From NCBI GenBank assembly GCA_017643685.1, contig JAEPMY010000011.1, positions 1 through 48,919 on the forward strand: a stretch of 48,919 bases of DNA, in the 5' to 3' direction. Below are positions 3,297 through 26,637 of this stretch, one piece after another (position 1 is the first letter of the stretch; the number at the start of each line of letters is the position of its first letter). A program made the position numbers and the translations under genes. The notes below the pieces were generated by a model, which worked only from the letters and a program-made list of their open reading frames with translations, was not told the DNA's origin and did not search any database. This DNA is from Sneathiella sp. GTDB lineage: Bacteria; Pseudomonadota; Alphaproteobacteria; Sneathiellales; Sneathiellaceae.

Positions 3297-3546
3297 AACA
3301 AATAATTTGAGATATTTCGTATCATGAATAATTAATATTAAGAAAAACTTCGTATAGTTTGTTTGTTAGAGTTATAAGTTCATAAATTTCATAATTCAGA
3401 AGATGGGTAATTGTCTATTAAAAGACTTCATTTTATATATTAAATACTCACCATTAAATGCTTTACTTTATATACAAACGCTTGTTTTTTTTATTTATTA
3501 CGATTTTGCCAGTTTTTTGGGGGTTTTAGGGGCGATTTAGCCAAAT

Positions 3547-3590
3547 GGTCAACTATTTTCACTTGACCTGCGTTATCTTATTTGATTAAT
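3547..3590 (+). promoter_or_regulatory. Candidate promoter of the acyl-CoA ligase/liv operon with overlapping inverted repeat
   Basis: TTGACC (3563-3568) is followed after 16 bases by ATTAAT (3585-3590), a modest sigma70-like match. The -35 box is also the right arm of a perfect 6-bp inverted repeat, ggtcaa (3547-3552) with ttgacc (3563-3568) and a 10-base spacer, so a repressor or activator bound there would contact the promoter. Transcription from here would leave a leader of about 190 bases. Confidence 0.35.
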
Positions 3591-3652
3591 GACGAGGTAA
3601 GGTTCGCAAAGAAACCGCCAAGAGGTCCCAAAAAAAGGGGCCCGATAATAAA

Positions 3653-3783
3653 CAGGGAGTAAACGTGTGTATTAGGCTTTGTCTCCATTTAACGGGAGAC
3701 GTGCGTCCTGTATCTGGCTAACCGAGCCCTCGTTATTCCCTGATGCTTAAAATAATTATGTGCTGTTTTGGGAATGCAGGGAG
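3653..3783 (+). promoter_or_regulatory. Duplicated Shine-Dalgarno with intervening anti-Shine-Dalgarno
   Basis: The same heptamer CAGGGAG occurs at 3653-3659, before the candidate leader ORF, and at 3777-3783, before the acyl-CoA ligase ATG. TTCCCTG at 3736-3742 can pair with either copy (six Watson-Crick pairs plus one G-U). Two local hairpins also occur, at 3624-3642 (ggtccc/ggggcc, loop of seven A) and 3681-3700 (gtctcc/ggagac). The layout resembles translational attenuation; this is inference from sequence only. Confidence 0.35.
3665..3721 (+). CDS. Candidate 18-codon leader peptide
   Basis: A short frame opens at GTG 3665, five bases after the Shine-Dalgarno-like AGGGAG (3654-3659), and ends at TAA 3719-3721. 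It would encode (V/M)CIRLCLHLTGDVRPVSG. It is too short to judge by codon use and matches no peptide I can name. Its position inside the leader of the acyl-CoA ligase operon, upstream of an anti-Shine-Dalgarno sequence, is the main reason to list it. It may be chance. Confidence 0.25.
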   Translation: MCIRLCLHLTGDVRPVSG

Positions 3784-3786
3784 CCT

Positions 3787-5742
3787 ATGACGAATAAAGA
3801 ACAGGAATTTGATACCTTTCCAAAGCTGATCCGACGTAACGCGGATGTCCGTCCGGATCGTCCTGCTTACCGAGAAAAGGAATATGGTATCTGGCAAACA
3901 TATACGTGGAAAGACGTGTATGAGAACTCACGCTCGCTTGCCCTTGGTCTAGTAGATCTTGGAATGCAGCGAGGCGATACGGTCGCCATTATCGGGTCCA
4001 ACCGCCCTCAGCTATACTGGGTATTCGCTGCGGCGCAGGCTGTTGGCGGGCTTCCTGTCCCGATTTATCAGGATGGTGTGGCTGACGAAATTCAGTTCGT
4101 TTTGGAACATGCTGAGGCGAAATTTGTTTTCTGTGAAGATCAGGAGCAAGTTGATAAGGTTTTGTCTGTCATCGACAAGTGTCCGAACATTCGCTACCTG
4201 ATCTATGAAGATGACCGGGGCATGCGCCACTACAAGCAGCCAAACGTTAAATCCTACAAAGATGTGCAGGCGCAAGGCGCGGCATATGATCAGAAAAACG
4301 CTGTTTTCTTTGATGCTGAGGTTAATAAAGGCAAGGCAGACGATATTGCGACGATCATGTACACATCTGGTACAACGGGCCGTCCGAAAGGCGTTATGCT
4401 CAGCTTCCGTAATATGGGTGAGGCTGGCCGTCTTTCCGTTGAATTCGAAAACCTGACTGAAAATGAGAAAGTTCTCTCTTACCTGCCAATGGCGTGGGTT
4501 GGTGATCATCTTTTCTCTTATTCTCAGGCTTCCACGGCAGGCTTCTCTGTGAACTGTCCGGAAAATGCGGAAACGGTTCTGACGGACTTGCGTGAGATTG
4601 GTCCAACCTATTATTTTGCTCCGCCAGCGATCTTCGAAAATTTGCTGACCCAGATGATGATCCGTATCGAGGATGCGAGCGCCATCAAGCAGAAAATGTT
4701 CCACTATTTTGTGGATGTGGCGAAAAAATGCGGTGTTGAGATTATGGAAGGAAAGCCAGTTTCTTTCATGGATCGCATTAAATACGCGATTGGAGATATT
4801 CTGGTTTATGGCCCGCTGAAAAACACACTTGGCTTCAGTCAGATTCGTGTTGCTTATACAGCTGGCGCGCCAATGGGTCCGGAAGTTTTCAAGTTTTACC
4901 GGTCTTTAGGCATCAACCTGAAGCAGCTATATGGTCAGACTGAAAGCTGCGCCTATGTCTGTATTCAGAACGACAGAGACGTGCGTCCTGACACAGTTGG
5001 TCCACCAGCTCCTGGGTGCGAGATCAAAATCGATGACGCAACAGGGGAAGTAATGTTCAAGAGCCCTGGCACATTTGTTGGCTACTACAAGAACGATGAA
5101 GCGACAAAAGAAACCAAGGATCCAGATGGATGGGTTCACACAGGTGACGCTGGCATTATGACGGATGATGGTCAGCTGAAAGTTATCGATCGTGCGAAAG
5201 ACGTTGGCAAATTGACTGACGGTACTTTGTTCGCGCCACAATATATTGAGAACAAGCTGAAATTCTTCCCGTTCATTTCCGAGGCTGTCTGTCATGGTCA
5301 TGAGCGTGATACGGTAACAGCTTTTATCAATATTGATCTTGAAGCTGTAGGTAACTGGGCAGAACGGCGCGGTATTTCCTATACAAGTTATCAGGATCTG
5401 GCGAACCGCGATGAAGTATACGCACAGATCAAAGAATGCGTTGAGCAGGTTAATAAAGACCTTGCCATTGATAGTGAATTGGCAGGTGCTCAGATAAGTC
5501 GTTTCCTAGTGCTGCCAAAAGCGCTGGATGCGGATGACGGTGAATTGACGCGGACACGTAAGGTGCGTCGTCGGATTATCGCTGAGCGTTATGAAACTCT
5601 TATCAACGCTTTGTTCAGCAACGTAGAGACAGTGGATATTGAATCACAGATGACTTTCGAGGATGGCCGTCAAGGTACTTTGAAAGCAACCGTGAAAGTC
5701 CGCGATGCCGATACTTATCCGGCAATGCGTGCCGCGTCTTAA
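3787..5742 (+). CDS. AMP-forming long-chain acyl-CoA synthetase-like ligase
   Basis: An adenylate-forming enzyme that would activate a carboxylic acid to its CoA thioester using ATP. The phosphate-loop motif IMYTSGTTGRPKGVML lies near residues 190-205; QLYGQTE (adenine-binding), GWVHTGDAG and the hinge KVIDRAKD follow in the usual order. At 651 residues it fits the FAA1/long-chain ligase group rather than shorter ligases. I place the start at ATG 3787, after CAGGGAG; an in-frame GTG at 3760 has no ribosome binding site. The liv genes follow at 21-64 base spacings, so the ligase probably activates what the transporter brings in. The substrate is not readable from sequence: a fatty, aromatic or branched acid are all possible. 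Confidence 0.88.
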   Translation: MTNKEQEFDTFPKLIRRNADVRPDRPAYREKEYGIWQTYTWKDVYENSRSLALGLVDLGMQRGDTVAIIGSNRPQLYWVFAAAQAVGGLPVPIYQDGVADEIQFVLEHAEAKFVFCEDQEQVDKVLSVIDKCPNIRYLIYEDDRGMRHYKQPNVKSYKDVQAQGAAYDQKNAVFFDAEVNKGKADDIATIMYTSGTTGRPKGVMLSFRNMGEAGRLSVEFENLTENEKVLSYLPMAWVGDHLFSYSQASTAGFSVNCPENAETVLTDLREIGPTYYFAPPAIFENLLTQMMIRIEDASAIKQKMFHYFVDVAKKCGVEIMEGKPVSFMDRIKYAIGDILVYGPLKNTLGFSQIRVAYTAGAPMGPEVFKFYRSLGINLKQLYGQTESCAYVCIQNDRDVRPDTVGPPAPGCEIKIDDATGEVMFKSPGTFVGYYKNDEATKETKDPDGWVHTGDAGIMTDDGQLKVIDRAKDVGKLTDGTLFAPQYIENKLKFFPFISEAVCHGHERDTVTAFINIDLEAVGNWAERRGISYTSYQDLANRDEVYAQIKECVEQVNKDLAIDSELAGAQISRFLVLPKALDADDGELTRTRKVRRRIIAERYETLINALFSNVETVDIESQMTFEDGRQGTLKATVKVRDADTYPAMRAAS

Positions 5743-5763
5743 TTTGCAGGGACTTAATACAGA

Positions 5764-6555
5764 ATGACATATCAAGATGTAAAACCGGGTGAAGTCCTTC
5801 TTGCAGTGGACAATATCAGCCTGTCTTTTGGAGCGGTTCGCGCCATTTCTGATGTTAGCTTTGACATCAATAAAGGTGAAATCCGCGCCATTATCGGCCC
5901 GAACGGTGCCGGTAAGACATCCATGCTGAACTGCATCAACGGCTTTTATCACCCCCAGCAGGGTACAATTACCTACAAAGGTCAGAAGCGTAGCGCTATG
6001 AAGCCGTATGAAGCTGCGGCGCAGGGCATCGCACGTACGTTCCAGAACGTGGCGCTCTTCAAGGGGATGTCTACGCTGGACAATATTATGACGGGGCGGA
6101 ACCTGAAAATGAAGTCAGGGATCTTCTCTTCCATGCTTTGGTATGGTGGCGCACAGAAAGAAGAGCTGGAGCACCGCCGTTACGTAGAAGACATTATCGA
6201 CTTCCTCGAAATTCAGGCGATCCGTAAAACGCCAGTTGGCCGTCTTCCATACGGTTTGCAAAAACGTGTGGAGCTGGGACGCGCCCTTGCCGCTGAACCA
6301 GAACTTCTACTTCTGGATGAGCCAATGGCTGGTATGAACCTCGAAGAGAAAGAGGATATGTGCCGCTTTATTCTGGATGTGAACGACGAATTTGGAACAA
6401 CAATCTGTCTGATTGAACATGACATGGGCGTGGTGATGGATATCTCCGACCGGGTTATGGTTCTCGATTATGGCGGGAAGATCGGCGACGGTGTCCCTGC
6501 AGAAGTTCGCGCTAATCAACAAGTTATCGACGCCTATCTGGGCGGCGGTCATTAA
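5764..6555 (+). CDS. livG: Branched-chain amino acid-type ABC transporter ATPase LivG
   Basis: Cytoplasmic ATP-hydrolysing subunit of a HAAT-type ABC importer. The Walker A is GPNGAGKTS, the signature region reads LPYGLQKRVELGRALA, and the Walker B is LLLLDEPMAGMN. Phe-Gln Q-loop (RTFQNVALF) and the H-loop (CLIEHDMGVVM) are present. At 263 residues it has the usual LivG length, and the insertion after the Q-loop is typical of LivG as against LivF. It follows the acyl-CoA ligase and is followed by the two permeases and a second ATPase, so the complex is complete. The substrate may be an organic acid rather than an amino acid, given the two ligases in the operon. Confidence 0.92.
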   Translation: MTYQDVKPGEVLLAVDNISLSFGAVRAISDVSFDINKGEIRAIIGPNGAGKTSMLNCINGFYHPQQGTITYKGQKRSAMKPYEAAAQGIARTFQNVALFKGMSTLDNIMTGRNLKMKSGIFSSMLWYGGAQKEELEHRRYVEDIIDFLEIQAIRKTPVGRLPYGLQKRVELGRALAAEPELLLLDEPMAGMNLEEKEDMCRFILDVNDEFGTTICLIEHDMGVVMDISDRVMVLDYGGKIGDGVPAEVRANQQVIDAYLGGGH

Positions 6556-6576
6556 TCCGGAAACAGGAGATATCCA

Positions 6577-7482
6577 ATGGAAGACATGATGTATGAACTT
6601 TTGTTCTTCTTAGAGGTCCTGTTCAGCGGTTTGTTGACAGGTACTCTTTACTCACTCGTTGCGCTTGGCTTTGTGCTGATCTTTAAAGCCTCTGGCGTAT
6701 TTAACTTTGCGCAAGGCGCGATGATGCTCTTTGCAGCCCTCAGCCTGGTAGGTTTCCAGGAAATGCTGGGTGTTCACTGGACGATTGCCTTTGTTCTGAC
6801 CGTTGCTTTGATGGTGGTGGTTGCCTGGTGTATTGAGAAGTTTGTCCTTGGAAAGCTGGTCAATCAGGAGGGGATTATCCTCTTTATGGCGACGATCGGT
6901 ATTACCTTCTTCCTGGATGGTTTTGGACAGACAATCTGGGGCAGTGACATTAAGACGCTCGATATTGGACTGCCAACTGGTTCTATTGACTTGGGCGGCA
7001 TTTTTGTCGATCGGCTTGAACTGGTCGCTGGATTGACAGCTGCAGCCCTTGTTGTAAGCCTCGCAATCTTCTTCAACAAAACAAAAATTGGCCGAGCTCT
7101 TCGGGCGGTGGCGGATGACCACCAGGCAGCGATGTCCGTGGGTATTTCCCTTCGGACTATCTGGATCATTGTTTGGTCTGTTGCGGGTGTTGTTGGTCTT
7201 GTTGCCGGTATTATGTGGGGCTCCAAGCTTGGTGTGCAGTTCAGTCTGACATTGCTGGCTTTGAAAGCTCTTCCTGTTCTGATGTTGGGTGGCTTTACCT
7301 CTATCCCAGGCGCGATCATTGGTGGTCTGATCATCGGTGCAGGTGAAAAACTTGCCGAGATTTACATTGGCCCATTTGTTGGCGGCGCTATTGAAAACTG
7401 GTTCGCTTACATGCTCGCAATGGCCTTCCTGCTGGTTCGTCCGCAGGGTCTGTTCGGTGAAAAGATTATTGAGAGGGTTTAA
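6577..7482 (+). CDS. livH: ABC transporter permease LivH
   Basis: Inner-membrane permease of the same importer. The 301 residues are almost wholly hydrophobic segments, beginning with LFSGLLTGTLYSLVALGFVL and including the LivH-typical GVFNFAQGAMM near residue 45, plus the EAA-like cytoplasmic loop GRALRAVADDHQAA. A CAGGAGA ribosome binding site lies 7 bases before the ATG. It is followed by livM after 5 bases, so the two permeases are probably translated together. It pairs with LivM to form the membrane channel. Confidence 0.92.
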   Translation: MEDMMYELLFFLEVLFSGLLTGTLYSLVALGFVLIFKASGVFNFAQGAMMLFAALSLVGFQEMLGVHWTIAFVLTVALMVVVAWCIEKFVLGKLVNQEGIILFMATIGITFFLDGFGQTIWGSDIKTLDIGLPTGSIDLGGIFVDRLELVAGLTAAALVVSLAIFFNKTKIGRALRAVADDHQAAMSVGISLRTIWIIVWSVAGVVGLVAGIMWGSKLGVQFSLTLLALKALPVLMLGGFTSIPGAIIGGLIIGAGEKLAEIYIGPFVGGAIENWFAYMLAMAFLLVRPQGLFGEKIIERV

Positions 7483-7487
7483 GGTCA

Positions 7488-8573
7488 ATGTTTTATCGTG
7501 AAGCTGGACAGTTTAAGTCCTCTTATAAAGAAGATCAGGCTATTTTCCCGATCCTGCAGGATCGGGTCGGAATTGCAGCGATCCTTCTGTTTGCTTATAT
7601 CGCCATTCCATTTGTAATGAGTGATTACCTGATCGGTGCGATTATGACACCGTTCCTGATCCTCGCGTTGGCGGCAATTGGTCTGAACATTCTAACCGGA
7701 TATGCCGGTCAGATTTCACTAGGTACTGGTGCCTTTATGGCGGTTGGTGCGTTCTCTGCTTATAAGTTCGCAACTTTCTCCATTATGTTAGGGGGTGCCG
7801 AGGCAACATTGCCGCTGGTGGTTACAATCCTGCTAGCAGGTGTTGTAACAGCGATCGTCGGTATCATGTTCGGTATTCCAAGTCTCCGCATTAAAGGGTT
7901 TTATCTTGCGGTAGCAACCCTTGCGGCTCAGTTCTTTATTGAGTGGCTACTGGTTAAAGTGGGTTGGTTCACAAACTACAGCCCATCCGGTGTGATTACG
8001 GCACCGCCACTGGTGATCCTCGGTTTCGAATTTAATACACCAGCAGAGAAATACCTGTTCACATTGACTTTTGTGGCTGCGATGGCGTTGCTGGCGAAGA
8101 ACTTGGTTCGTAGTCATATTGGACGTGGTTGGATGGCGATCCGGGACATGGACATTGCCGCCGAGATTATTGGCTTCCGTCCATTGCAGACAAAACTTTC
8201 CGCCTTTGCGGTCAGCTCTTTCTTCTGTGGTGTCGCGGGTGCGCTCTGGGCGTTTGTCCACCTTGGTACGGTTGAGCCAGAAGCGTTTGGTATTAACCGC
8301 TCTTTTGCCATCCTGTTCATGGTGATCATTGGTGGTATGGGCAGTATCCTTGGGTCCTTCATTGGGGCTGCCTTCATCACACTGCTGCCAATTTTCTTGA
8401 ATAACGTACCACCACTGATCGGTTGGAACATCGGCGTGGATATGATTGCCCACCTAGAATTTATGATCTTTGGTGTGCTGATCATCTTCTTCTTGATTGT
8501 AGAGCCACATGGCCTTGCAAGATTGTGGACTATCGGTAAGGAAAAACTGAGATCCTGGCCGTTTCCATATTGA
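7488..8573 (+). CDS. livM: ABC transporter permease LivM
   Basis: Second inner-membrane permease of the importer, 361 residues with about ten hydrophobic segments. LivM features include LNILTGYAGQISLGTGAFMA and GRGWMAIRDMDIAAEIIG, the latter being the loop that meets the ATPase. The N-terminal 30 residues are hydrophilic and precede the first membrane segment, as is common in LivM. An AAGG element just before the ATG serves as ribosome binding site. The gene is followed by a 115-base gap with a hairpin before the binding-protein gene. Confidence 0.92.
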   Translation: MFYREAGQFKSSYKEDQAIFPILQDRVGIAAILLFAYIAIPFVMSDYLIGAIMTPFLILALAAIGLNILTGYAGQISLGTGAFMAVGAFSAYKFATFSIMLGGAEATLPLVVTILLAGVVTAIVGIMFGIPSLRIKGFYLAVATLAAQFFIEWLLVKVGWFTNYSPSGVITAPPLVILGFEFNTPAEKYLFTLTFVAAMALLAKNLVRSHIGRGWMAIRDMDIAAEIIGFRPLQTKLSAFAVSSFFCGVAGALWAFVHLGTVEPEAFGINRSFAILFMVIIGGMGSILGSFIGAAFITLLPIFLNNVPPLIGWNIGVDMIAHLEFMIFGVLIIFFLIVEPHGLARLWTIGKEKLRSWPFPY

Positions 8574-8586
8574 TCTGTCGCCCGAA

Positions 8587-8613
8587 GACGGTCAGAGTAA
8601 ATATCTGGCCGTC
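8587..8613 (+). promoter_or_regulatory. Intercistronic hairpin before the binding-protein gene
   Basis: gacggtcaga (8587-8596) pairs with tctggccgtc (8604-8613) over 10 bp, with one G-U and a 7-base loop. No T-run follows, so it is more likely an mRNA processing or stabilising element than a terminator; binding proteins are usually made in excess over their permeases. Confidence 0.4.
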
Positions 8614-8688
8614 ATAAGGGAGACGGCACTTCATCTCTTGGCGATTGGGATATCGCGCTTAAACAAGGGTAACTCTGGGAGGAAAAAT

Positions 8689-10008
8689 ATGAGTTTGAAG
8701 AAATTTGTACTCGGTGTTGTAGGAGCAGCAGTTCTGGCAGCTCCGTTCACAACGGCAGCACCAGCCATGGCAGAAGATACACTGTATCTGCCAAAACTGG
8801 TTTATCGTACTGGCCCATTTGCGCCAGGTGGTATTCCAACAGCTAACGGTGCAGCTGACTACTGGGCGATGATTAACGAGCGCGATGGCGGCGTTGGCGG
8901 TGCTCGCGTTATTCACGAAGAGTGTGAGTTCGGTTACAACACAGACCGTGGCGTTGAGTGTTACGAGCGGACTAAAGGCAACCACAATGGTGCGCTGATT
9001 TATCAGCCATATTCCACAGGTGTAACTTACGCGCTTGCAGACCGGACTCGGACTGACAAAATTCCTCTGATGACTATGGGGTATGGTCGTGCGGATGCTG
9101 GTATTGGTACTGCGTTCCCATGGGTGTTCCCGCTGATGACCAACTACTGGGGTCAGGGCACAGGCATCATGAAATACATTGCCAAGCAAGAAGGTGGTCT
9201 TGACAGCGTTAAAGACAAAACTATCGCACTTGTTTACCTGGATATCGCTTATGGTAAGGAATCTCTGCCGATTTTCCGCACTATGTCTGAAAAGTTCGGC
9301 TTCAAGCTGAAAGAGTATCCTGTAACATTCCCAGGCATCGAGCAGAAAGCGACTTGGCTTCAGGTTCGCCGTGCACGTCCAGACTACATTGTAATGTGGG
9401 GTTGGGGTGCAATGAACGCATCAGCGATCAAAGAAGCTGCTAACATTCGCTTCGATATGAGCAAGTTTATCGGTAACTGGTGGGCCGGTGCTGAGCAGGA
9501 CACAATTCCAGCTGGTGCAGCCGCAGAAGGTTACAAGAGTGCAACTTTCGCTAATGCGGGTTTTGACTATCCGGTTATCAAAGACATTATGAAGCATGTG
9601 TATAAGGGTGATGCCGATGCCGCTTCTGAGAAGAATATCGGTCAGGTGTTGTATAACCGCTCTGTGCTGACACAGGTCTTTATTCACGCAGGTATCCTGA
9701 AAGCTCAGGAAAAATTCGGTGTGAAAGCGATTAACGGCGAGCAGCTGCGTTGGGGTCTTGAGAACATCAAGATGGACGCAGCCATGAATGAGAAAATGGG
9801 CATCGGTGGTATGGGCCCAGAAATCTCTCCAACATGTGCTGACCACGTTGGTGGCGGTGGCTTCTTCATTCAGCAGTGGAAGGACGGCAAATTCGAAGTT
9901 GTATCCGACGTCCTGACACCAATGGATGATCTGGTTCTGCCAGCAATGCAGGAAGCTGCTGATAAATACCTGAAGGATAAAGGCCTAGAGCCAGTATCCT
10001 GTAACTAA
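8689..10008 (+). CDS. Periplasmic substrate-binding protein of the liv-type transporter
   Basis: Would capture the transported compound in the periplasm and hand it to LivHM. The start is ATG 8689, supported by GGGAGG 6 bases upstream; an upstream in-frame codon would add 17 hydrophilic residues before the signal peptide. MSLKKFVLGVVGAAVLAAP leads a Sec signal peptide, with a likely cut at APAMA-E. The 439-residue protein fits the Leu/Ile/Val-binding type 1 periplasmic fold (Peripla_BP_6): LPKLVYRTGPFAPGG at the mature N-terminus and KTIALVYLDIAYGKE in the hinge region. It belongs to the longer branch of the family often found with aromatic or fatty acid ligases, but the ligand is unknown. 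Confidence 0.85.
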   Translation: MSLKKFVLGVVGAAVLAAPFTTAAPAMAEDTLYLPKLVYRTGPFAPGGIPTANGAADYWAMINERDGGVGGARVIHEECEFGYNTDRGVECYERTKGNHNGALIYQPYSTGVTYALADRTRTDKIPLMTMGYGRADAGIGTAFPWVFPLMTNYWGQGTGIMKYIAKQEGGLDSVKDKTIALVYLDIAYGKESLPIFRTMSEKFGFKLKEYPVTFPGIEQKATWLQVRRARPDYIVMWGWGAMNASAIKEAANIRFDMSKFIGNWWAGAEQDTIPAGAAAEGYKSATFANAGFDYPVIKDIMKHVYKGDADAASEKNIGQVLYNRSVLTQVFIHAGILKAQEKFGVKAINGEQLRWGLENIKMDAAMNEKMGIGGMGPEISPTCADHVGGGGFFIQQWKDGKFEVVSDVLTPMDDLVLPAMQEAADKYLKDKGLEPVSCN

Positions 10009-10046
10009 GCTGTAATTGGTAACCTGAAAAAGAGCGAGTCTTGTCT

Positions 10047-10862
10047 ATGAACGCGTCAAGCAATCCCCTTCTTAGGGTCAACAATATCGAGGTCATCTAC
10101 GACCATGTTATCTTGGTACTGAAAGGGGTCTCGCTCGAGGTTCCTGAGGGTAAAATTGTTTCTATCCTCGGGGCCAACGGCGCTGGCAAGACGACCACTT
10201 TGAAAGCCATTTCTAACCTCCTCCGCTCTGAGCGCGGGGAGGTTACGAAAGGCTCCATCGAGTATCGTGGCAATAACATTACTGACAAATCTCCTGCCGA
10301 ATTGGTGATGGATGGTGTTGTTCAGGTGATGGAAGGCCGCCACTGTTTTGAACATTTGACCGTGGAAGAAAACCTTCTCACTGGCGCCTACACCCGTAAA
10401 GGCGGCCGGGCCATGATCAATGAAGAGTTGGAGAAGGTGTATCACTATTTCCCTCGCTTGAAAGAGCGTCGGACATCACAAGCCGGTTACGTCTCCGGTG
10501 GTGAGCAGCAGATGGTTGCCGTGGGCCGTGCCCTGATGGCGAAACCAAATCTTATTCTGCTGGATGAGCCATCCATGGGTCTTGCACCTCAGCTTGTGGA
10601 AGAGATTTTTGAAATTGTTAAGCGTCTGAATATTGAAACCGGGGTTAGCTTCCTGGTGGCTGAGCAGAACGCGACAGTTGCGTTGAAATATGCACATTAC
10701 GGCTACATTCTGGAAAATGGTCGCGTCGTGATGGACGGTGAGGCTGAAAGTCTCTCCAACAACGAAGACGTGAAAGAATTCTACCTTGGCCTTGGCGGAG
10801 ACGGCCGTAAGAGCTTTAAAGAGGTGAAGCATTATCGTCGCCGTAAACGTTGGTTGGCATAA
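10047..10862 (+). CDS. livF: Branched-chain amino acid-type ABC transporter ATPase LivF
   Basis: Second ATPase of the importer, partner of LivG. Walker A is GANGAGKTT, the signature is [16 protein letters not shown], and Walker B is [13 protein letters not shown], all in typical LivF form. I prefer ATG 10047 (271 residues) over the in-frame TTG at 10041, because AGAGCGAG then lies 8 bases upstream. The C-terminus ends in a basic tail ([11 protein letters not shown]) somewhat longer than in classic LivF. It completes the five-gene transporter and is followed after 46 bases by the PaaK-like gene. Confidence 0.9.
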
Positions 10863-10908
10863 AGTCATCTGATCCTGAAAAGACAAAAATAATCCGAGTG
10901 AGATCAAA

Positions 10909-12156
10909 ATGACTGATGCACGCAAATATTATGATGATCTGGAAACTCGCTCTGCGGAGCAGAGGACGTCAGATCAAATTGCGAACCTGCAGGCTCAAAT
11001 CGTCCATGCGAAAGCAAATTCCGATTATTTCGGAGAGCTTTTCAAAGATGTGGACCCAGCCTCCATCGATAGTATGGAGGCGCTGGCCACATTGCCGGTT
11101 ACTCGCAAATCCGACTTAATTGGAAAACAAAATGAAAACCCGCCTCTTGGAGGATTGAACGCTGAGCCTGTTGGTGACGTGTCCAATGTCTTTATGTCTC
11201 CGGGTCCGATTTTCGAGCCGGGTCAGGATATTAAAGATTATTTCCGGATGGGCCGGGCAATGTGGGCCGCCGGTTTCCGCCCAGGTGATCTGGTCTATAA
11301 TACATTTTCGTACCACATGACCCCAGCAGGTCACATGATGGAAAGCGGCGCACGCGCGGTGGGCTGCCCTGTGTTTCCGGCCGGTATTGGTAATACTGAA
11401 ATGCAGCTGCAGGCTGTTTCTACGTTGAAGCCACGGGCTTATGTAGGCACACCGTCCTTCCTCAAAATTCTTCTGGAGAAGGGTAAAGAGGCGGGCATGG
11501 ATATGTCCTCCATTAAAGTTGCCAGTGTTGGCGGTGAAGCATTGCCACCATCTTTGCGTCAGGCGTTGAGAGATCTGGGTGTTGAAACTGTTATTCAGTC
11601 ATATGGGACAGCTGATCTTGGTTTGATCGCTTATGAAACTGACGCGATGGAAGGCATGACAATCGACGAAAACGTCATTGTTGAGATTGTCCGTCCGGGG
11701 ACTGGCGATCCAGTTGCGCCGGGTGAGGTTGGTGAAGTTGTCGTGACAACTTTCAACAAAACTTATCCACTTATCCGTTTTGGAACTGGCGACATGTCTG
11801 CCTTGATGGAAGATGGCAGCGCGTGTGGCCGAACTGGACCACGGATCAAAGGCTGGATGGGTCGTGCTGACCAGACTGCTAAAATCAAAGGTATGTTTGT
11901 GCACCCTGGGCAAGTTGTGGATGTTCAAAAAGCCCATAGCGAGATCAAGAAAATCCGGCTTGTTGTTACCAGTGAAGATAACGTGGACATCATGACGGCC
12001 CATTGTGAAGTCGCAGACGGTAACGATGCGCTTAAGGCGAACGTTGAAAAGTCGGTTCAGGCGAAATGTAAACTGCGCGGCAATGTGGAATTCGTAGAGC
12101 CCGGTAGTCTGCCAAATGACGGTAAAGTGATCGACGATCAGCGTACCTACGAATAA
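10909..12156 (+). CDS. PaaK-like (phenylacetate-CoA ligase family) adenylate-forming protein with atypical phosphate loop
   Basis: Resembles phenylacetate-CoA ligases across its 415 residues: the start with ARKYYDDLETRS, VASVGGEALP, the aromatic-acid motif SYGTADLGLIAYET, the RFGTGDMSAL motif, and a C-terminal lid beginning GRADQTAKIKGMFVHPGQV. The Ser/Gly/Thr phosphate loop (SSGTTG in PaaK) is replaced by MSPGPIFEPG at residues 96-105, so ATP handling may differ or be lost. It is the last gene of the liv operon, before a strong terminator. The family points to an aromatic or small organic acid; I cannot assign the substrate, and a non-catalytic role is possible. Confidence 0.75.
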   Translation: MTDARKYYDDLETRSAEQRTSDQIANLQAQIVHAKANSDYFGELFKDVDPASIDSMEALATLPVTRKSDLIGKQNENPPLGGLNAEPVGDVSNVFMSPGPIFEPGQDIKDYFRMGRAMWAAGFRPGDLVYNTFSYHMTPAGHMMESGARAVGCPVFPAGIGNTEMQLQAVSTLKPRAYVGTPSFLKILLEKGKEAGMDMSSIKVASVGGEALPPSLRQALRDLGVETVIQSYGTADLGLIAYETDAMEGMTIDENVIVEIVRPGTGDPVAPGEVGEVVVTTFNKTYPLIRFGTGDMSALMEDGSACGRTGPRIKGWMGRADQTAKIKGMFVHPGQVVDVQKAHSEIKKIRLVVTSEDNVDIMTAHCEVADGNDALKANVEKSVQAKCKLRGNVEFVEPGSLPNDGKVIDDQRTYE

Positions 12157-26487: not shown

Positions 26488-26637
26488 CACCCCACTCTTT
26501 CAACAGAGCGACATATTTTGCATGCCCCAAGGGGCACCGTCAGTCCGCGAGTTTCGCGCACTGGCGTTTTTTGCGTTGAGTCGTATTTGGCCGATTGGGT
26601 GATGTGAAACTAGCAGTTTTGAACGGGTTTTGACCAT

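Follow-up and report, generated by a model that had tools for sequence, protein, structure and literature searches.

In the window, i.e. the whole stretch of 48,919 nucleotides analysed here, an operon headed by an acyl-CoA ligase gene is preceded by a leader whose predicted fold is conserved within the genus. We propose, on evidence that leaves us evenly poised between belief and doubt, that this structured 5' leader controls ligase translation through two competing pairings of its middle strand (R), one with an upstream arm (L) and one with the ribosome binding site (RBS) of the ligase. Comparison among relatives supports the existence of the leader and of its L:R helix as well as the absence of a conserved upstream open reading frame (ORF); the switching by R is what we infer.

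According to the proposal, the ligase-liv mRNA would begin with a structured 5' leader of ~190 nt, in which two small hairpins would be followed by a domain with variable hairpins, closed by the pairing of L (3653-3665) with R (3731-3742), then by hairpin hpC and the RBS. With L:R formed, the RBS CAGGGAG (3777-3783) would be free and the ligase translated; with L occupied or unfolded, R would pair with the RBS and close it. Since L, R and the RBS are transcribed in this order, L:R should form first and the default state would be ON, despite the R:RBS fold of the window being predicted as more stable by ~7 kcal/mol. Candidate signals would be temperature, an RNA-binding protein, an RNA acting in trans or ribosome traffic. 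An aptamer for a small molecule is disfavoured, as the interior of the domain has no conserved nucleotides. Possible, if rather doubtful, is the more specific idea of a genus-specific bistable leader in which one strand chooses between a Shine-Dalgarno (SD)-like decoy and the real SD with neither ligand core nor leader peptide, selection keeps the fold and not the sequence, and either a physical cue (temperature) or ribosome traffic may act as trigger.

Locus, promoter and leader segments

Downstream of the ligase gene come livG-, livH- and livM-like genes, one that likely encodes a substrate-binding protein, a livF-like gene and a gene for a PaaK-like ligase, several of these names being presumed from gene order. 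This ligase-liv-PaaK operon (3787-12156) lies between acnA, from which it is separated by an intergenic region of 829 bases, and ccmA, the next gene after the operon in the window. The ligase together with the leader was found in 10 of 24 genomes of the genus (own genome included; ligase identity 72-100%), with livG directly 3' of the ligase in all nine loci whose contig reaches that far (the contig of L012 ends earlier); in G017 just the 3' end of the ligase is present, without the leader. In the seven ligase-less genomes of the genus that were checked, acnA is directly divergent from the neighbouring ccmA, which suggests that operon and leader were gained or lost together. In G024, from the other genus of the family, the ligase likewise adjoins acnA. 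Relatives of the ligase are found across proteobacteria, and the named ones among them make Alphaproteobacteria the probable class of the window.

Features of the acnA-ligase intergenic region and its flanks (positions in the window; hp, hairpin)
Feature	Position	Strand	Remarks
acnA	start at 2957	minus	divergent from the ligase operon
Palindrome ACAAACGCTTGT (longer form TACAAACGCTTGTTT)	3474..3485 (3473-3487)	.	kept in relatives as ACAAAYGYTTGT
Promoter candidate: TTGACC, 18-nt spacer, TAATGA	3563..3592	+	boxes conserved in genus leaders
hp1 (GGUU/AACC, A-rich loop)	3601..3616	+	paired in 90% of cells; one pair with a C-G/U-A change
hp2 (GGUCCC/GGGGCC, A loop)	3624..3642	+	predicted for most leaders, the window included
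L arm CAGGGAGUAAACG, first CAGGGAG copy	3653..3665	+	GGGAG invariant in 10/10
18-codon GTG ORF VCIRLCLHLTGDVRPVSG	3665..3721	+	present in the window; not conserved
hpA, variable inner hairpin	3680..3702 (approximate limits)	+	predicted fold
hpB, variable inner hairpin	3716..3728 (approximate limits)	+	predicted fold
R arm CGUUAUUCCCUG, candidate switching strand	3731..3742	+	pairs with L or with 3777-3783
hpC, between R and RBS	3746..3772	+	predicted fold
Ligase SD, second CAGGGAG copy	3777..3783	+	CAGGGAG in 8/10; CAGGGAA in L006; CCGGGCAG in L010
AMP-binding acyl-CoA ligase, operon gene 1	3787..5742 (ATG at 3787)	+	FadD11-like NCBIfam match below the model's cut-off

All ten leaders of the genus have a CTTGAC box in a comparable position, 81-92 nt upstream of GGGAG, and nine of them carry a TANNNA hexamer (TATTGA, TAATGA, TATTCA, TAATCA or TATGCA) 18 nt after it; a generic consensus promoter scan of the window did not report the candidate at 3563..3592. 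We infer a transcription start site (TSS) near 3598, upstream of all the leader elements discussed. The leader, preceded by these conserved promoter-like boxes, may be transcribed within the ligase mRNA. Furthermore, ACAAAYGYTTGT starts 77-88 nt upstream of CTTGAC in nine of the ten same-genus promoters (it is degenerate in L010), and perfect copies of the palindrome occur only at ligase promoters among the 24 genomes of the genus. The palindrome is probably the operator of a regulator, placed upstream of the promoter.

The segments on which the preliminary description was built were all found where it placed them: CAGGGAG at 3653-3659 (in L) and at 3777-3783 (the ligase RBS), TTCCCTG at 3736-3742 (in R) and complementary to both, ATTCCC at 3735-3740 and GGGAAT at 3770-3775. 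A lone CAGGGAG occurs in the window at chance frequency (6 found, 5.26 expected). The window has a single instance of the arrangement CAGGGAG-N60-88-TTCCCTG and none of 100 shuffles has any, a flattering figure because the pattern was written after the site had been seen.

Conserved L:R helix and unconserved short ORF

In the ten leaders of the genus, R lies 69-95 nt downstream of L and pairs with it. Carrying more weight than the pattern count is the test among relatives: when L was compared with the downstream sequence, its pairing was better than in shuffles (combined P 4e-5; singly, P >0.1 in four of the ten), and its best partner fell at R, not placed by hand, in every leader except L004. 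Covariation was scored on alignments of these ten leaders of one genus, to which neither L011 and L013, from other genera, nor the more distant ligase loci contributed, with R placed by eye for the L:R alignment. Here 82.7% of cells are paired and four pairs have changes on both sides, the cells so changed numbering nine as against 4.1 in shuffles; the covariation score of 0.331 compares with 0.207 (sd 0.031) in shuffles, of which 1 in 500 reached it. As kin sequences can exceed shuffles without any structure, the safer figures are those from slid registers, where the score is at most 0.178, and from the swapping of partners between leaders (own versus swapped L:R, only P 0.036). Taken jointly, hp1, hp2 and L:R score 0.302 against 0.211; hp2 itself has 62.5% of cells paired and both-side changes at two pairs, the alignment being poor here in several rows. 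All P values ignore kinship, and all these leaders come from one genus.

The domain from L to R folds better than its shuffles in all ten leaders (single P 0.003-0.056, combined P 2e-9), and its interior shows no sequence conservation among them (mean pairwise identity 0.50, shuffled 0.48); thus the fold has been kept and the sequence has not. Combined over the ten leaders, the stretch from the TSS to L likewise outdoes its shuffles (P 1e-4), with single P <0.05 in three of them and 0.05 in one more. Ten leaders of one genus could be suspected of owing their complementarity to chance around segments that are purine-rich and resemble an RBS, preserved by common descent, the more so as the statistics ignore kinship and some single tests are weak (the L pairing in the four leaders mentioned); we nevertheless regard it as very improbable, given that covariation is lost in shifted registers and that the fold persists in 10/10 leaders whose L-R interior has diverged to shuffled-level identity. 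Judged from these alignments, the compensatory changes expected of structured cis-regulatory leaders in general are present here, within one genus. The marks of a metabolite riboswitch were looked for and not found: this interior has no conserved aptamer core, and neither the window nor 20 related loci gave a relevant match to a described class.

The preliminary description had assigned the regulatory role to the short ORF at 3665-3721, the translation of which would direct R either to L or to the RBS of the ligase, as in a translational attenuator. L does resemble an SD sequence, and a GTG follows GGGAG by 4-6 nt in five of the ten leaders (L002, L003, L004, L005 and L007); moreover, ATG ORFs of 26-43 codons stand upstream of the ligase in L037, L058, L060 and L067. 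The ORFs in those five leaders, however, have 18, 8, 5, 3 and 6 codons and encode unrelated peptides (VCNGALLR, VCWFE, VTV and VCARPV as the counterparts of VCIRLCLHLTGDVRPVSG), the remaining five have no start codon at this place after L, and L would lie buried in the conserved L:R helix. Some leaders have other starts: in L012 a GTG further on opens a frame of 40 codons that resembles none of the rest, in L007 a second GTG opens 44 codons, and L004 has two more starts giving 7 and 8 codons. The lack of a conserved ORF, together with the unconserved L-R interior, is a strong argument against a leader-peptide attenuator, which we rejected for the genus and consider very unlikely as an explanation of the leader.

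What the preliminary description had noticed was nevertheless a real conserved structured leader, conserved in its fold and not in its peptide. The alignment of relatives that it proposed returned covariation of L:R, but neither covariation of R:RBS nor conservation of the short ORF; of the two losses that, occurring together, it had named as telling against it, that of the ORF was observed, whereas compensatory changes are present.

Predicted pairing of R with the ligase RBS

R was also supposed to pair alternatively with either copy of CAGGGAG, and this part stands in so far as L:R covaries and R (3736-3742) is able, in predicted folds, to cover the RBS copy at 3777-3783; R:RBS is without covariation. 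Across the ten leaders no R:RBS pair is changed on both sides, the score is 0.165 against 0.152, and the RBS hardly varies. R pairs no better with its own RBS than with a swapped one (P 0.24). In the window R:RBS is the predicted optimum (-63.6 as against -56.2 kcal/mol for L:R), and the forced L:R and R:RBS folds differ by at most 7.4 kcal/mol at 37 C in all ten leaders, the favoured state at this temperature being L:R in seven (in two by only 0.2-0.3 kcal/mol) and R:RBS in three including the window. On these predictions, competing L:R and R:RBS folds are physically plausible; no sign of selection for their competition emerged from the ten leaders. A thermosensor was rejected since the predicted temperature shift is small and uneven.

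To the competition of L and the RBS for R, which we take as the likeliest mechanism, the main rival is a static role of the L:R structure, e.g. in mRNA stability, processing by RNase III or another enzyme, 5' insulation or ribosome standby, with R:RBS as a by-product of the GGGAG-like sequence of both L and the RBS. Covariation that supports L:R alone, the null result of the own-versus-swapped test for R:RBS and a balance of the two states that is not conserved between species are all in keeping with such a role. Against it, the folds from R to the RBS, taken together, outdo their shuffles (P 1e-3; <0.06 singly in three of the ten), and GGGAG of L is invariant while R varies, a pattern to be expected were R also constrained by the RBS. 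On balance we hold the static role to be unlikely, but a serious contender.

Termination of transcription ahead of the ligase, at hpC or at some other hairpin followed by Us, would make the leader a transcriptional attenuator or the source of a small RNA. This idea could draw on a terminator-like hairpin at the hpC position in L005 and on others inside the leader of L008. We found no such hairpin in the window, L007, L009 or L012, and the sequence from R to the RBS is hardly conserved (identity 0.45, shuffled 0.41), so that this reading seems to us very unlikely; an intrinsic terminator as a shared element was rejected as not conserved among the six leaders scanned (the window, L005, L007, L008, L009 and L012).

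Distribution and likeness to known systems

No relevant Rfam match to the leader was obtained in the window or in 20 related loci, matches to suhB (minus strand, E 2.7) and snoR136 (E 8) being taken as chance, and our literature search found no description of this leader. The hp1 pattern without mismatch occurs at six places in the 24 genomes of the genus, five of them at the ligase; the sixth lies in G017, in what appears to be coding sequence. A covariance model of hp1-hp2-L-R (R1), which recovers the ten leaders from which it was built, gave nine matches with E <0.01 in these genomes, all of them ligase leaders, the tenth leader (G011) having E 0.057. Two other places in ligase genomes score comparably (G007, E 0.031; G019, E 0.052), and in the 14 genomes without the full ligase the best E is 0.079. 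A multi-gene regulon was rejected, as both searches point to ligase leaders and to no convincing other place in the genus. Among 385 genomes of the class, R1 yielded 11 weak matches in 10 genomes of other genera, mostly small ones (best E 0.0018), which is fewer than expected by chance at E 0.05 each.

The L:R pairing was also sought in 11 leaders of other genera and families. The duplex reached P <=0.05 only in the near-identical L036 (0.02) and L142 (0.016), where AGGGAGACCGG and CCGGTCTCCTG form a predicted pairing of 9 bp just before the ligase RBS, in a similar setting; L141 gave P 0.088. It was not significant in L011, L013, L044, L060, L110, L140 and L143, and the two nearest outside leaders, L011 and L013, have no L:R helix (P 0.91 and 0.71). 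The whole fold reached P <=0.05 in L036, L060, L078 (0.005), L141 and L143. On these results the leader does not qualify as a wider family.

Translational riboswitches and other RBS-sequestering leaders share with this leader mutually exclusive helices in which a strand either closes an upstream domain or covers the SD; the present leader differs from them in having no conserved aptamer core, no covariation of R:RBS and no Rfam match. Translational attenuators of the ermC and cat type have repeated SD-like segments with a complementary segment between them and a short ORF, all of which the window has, but here ORF and peptide are not conserved. Thermosensing leaders of the cspA type resemble the present leader in two competing folds that need no ligand core; the latter differs in its small and uneven predicted temperature shift. 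If real, the switch would represent an SD-decoy leader of which only the structure is conserved, a type that would escape searches by sequence, and would place under post-transcriptional control an acyl-CoA ligase/liv ABC operon for which regulation is otherwise suggested only by the upstream palindrome.

PMC10272879 reports a conserved upstream ORF before ilvBNC of Corynebacterium, which emerged from a search for structured RNAs. In both cases something conserved precedes an operon related to branched-chain compounds, and they differ in that the ORF is conserved there and the structure, not the ORF, here.

In leaders L037, L058, L060 and L067, which belong to other families, the ATG ORF of 26-43 codons follows an SD of the GGGAG/GGAGG type and ends near the start of the ligase; L058 and L067 encode peptides with similar beginnings (MAKETSMIDTRSVS and MSEETLMTHARRVS). 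Elsewhere in the window, positions 26523-26573 match the Rfam family RF01793 (ffh sRNA) with 35.2 bits, the cut-off being 35.
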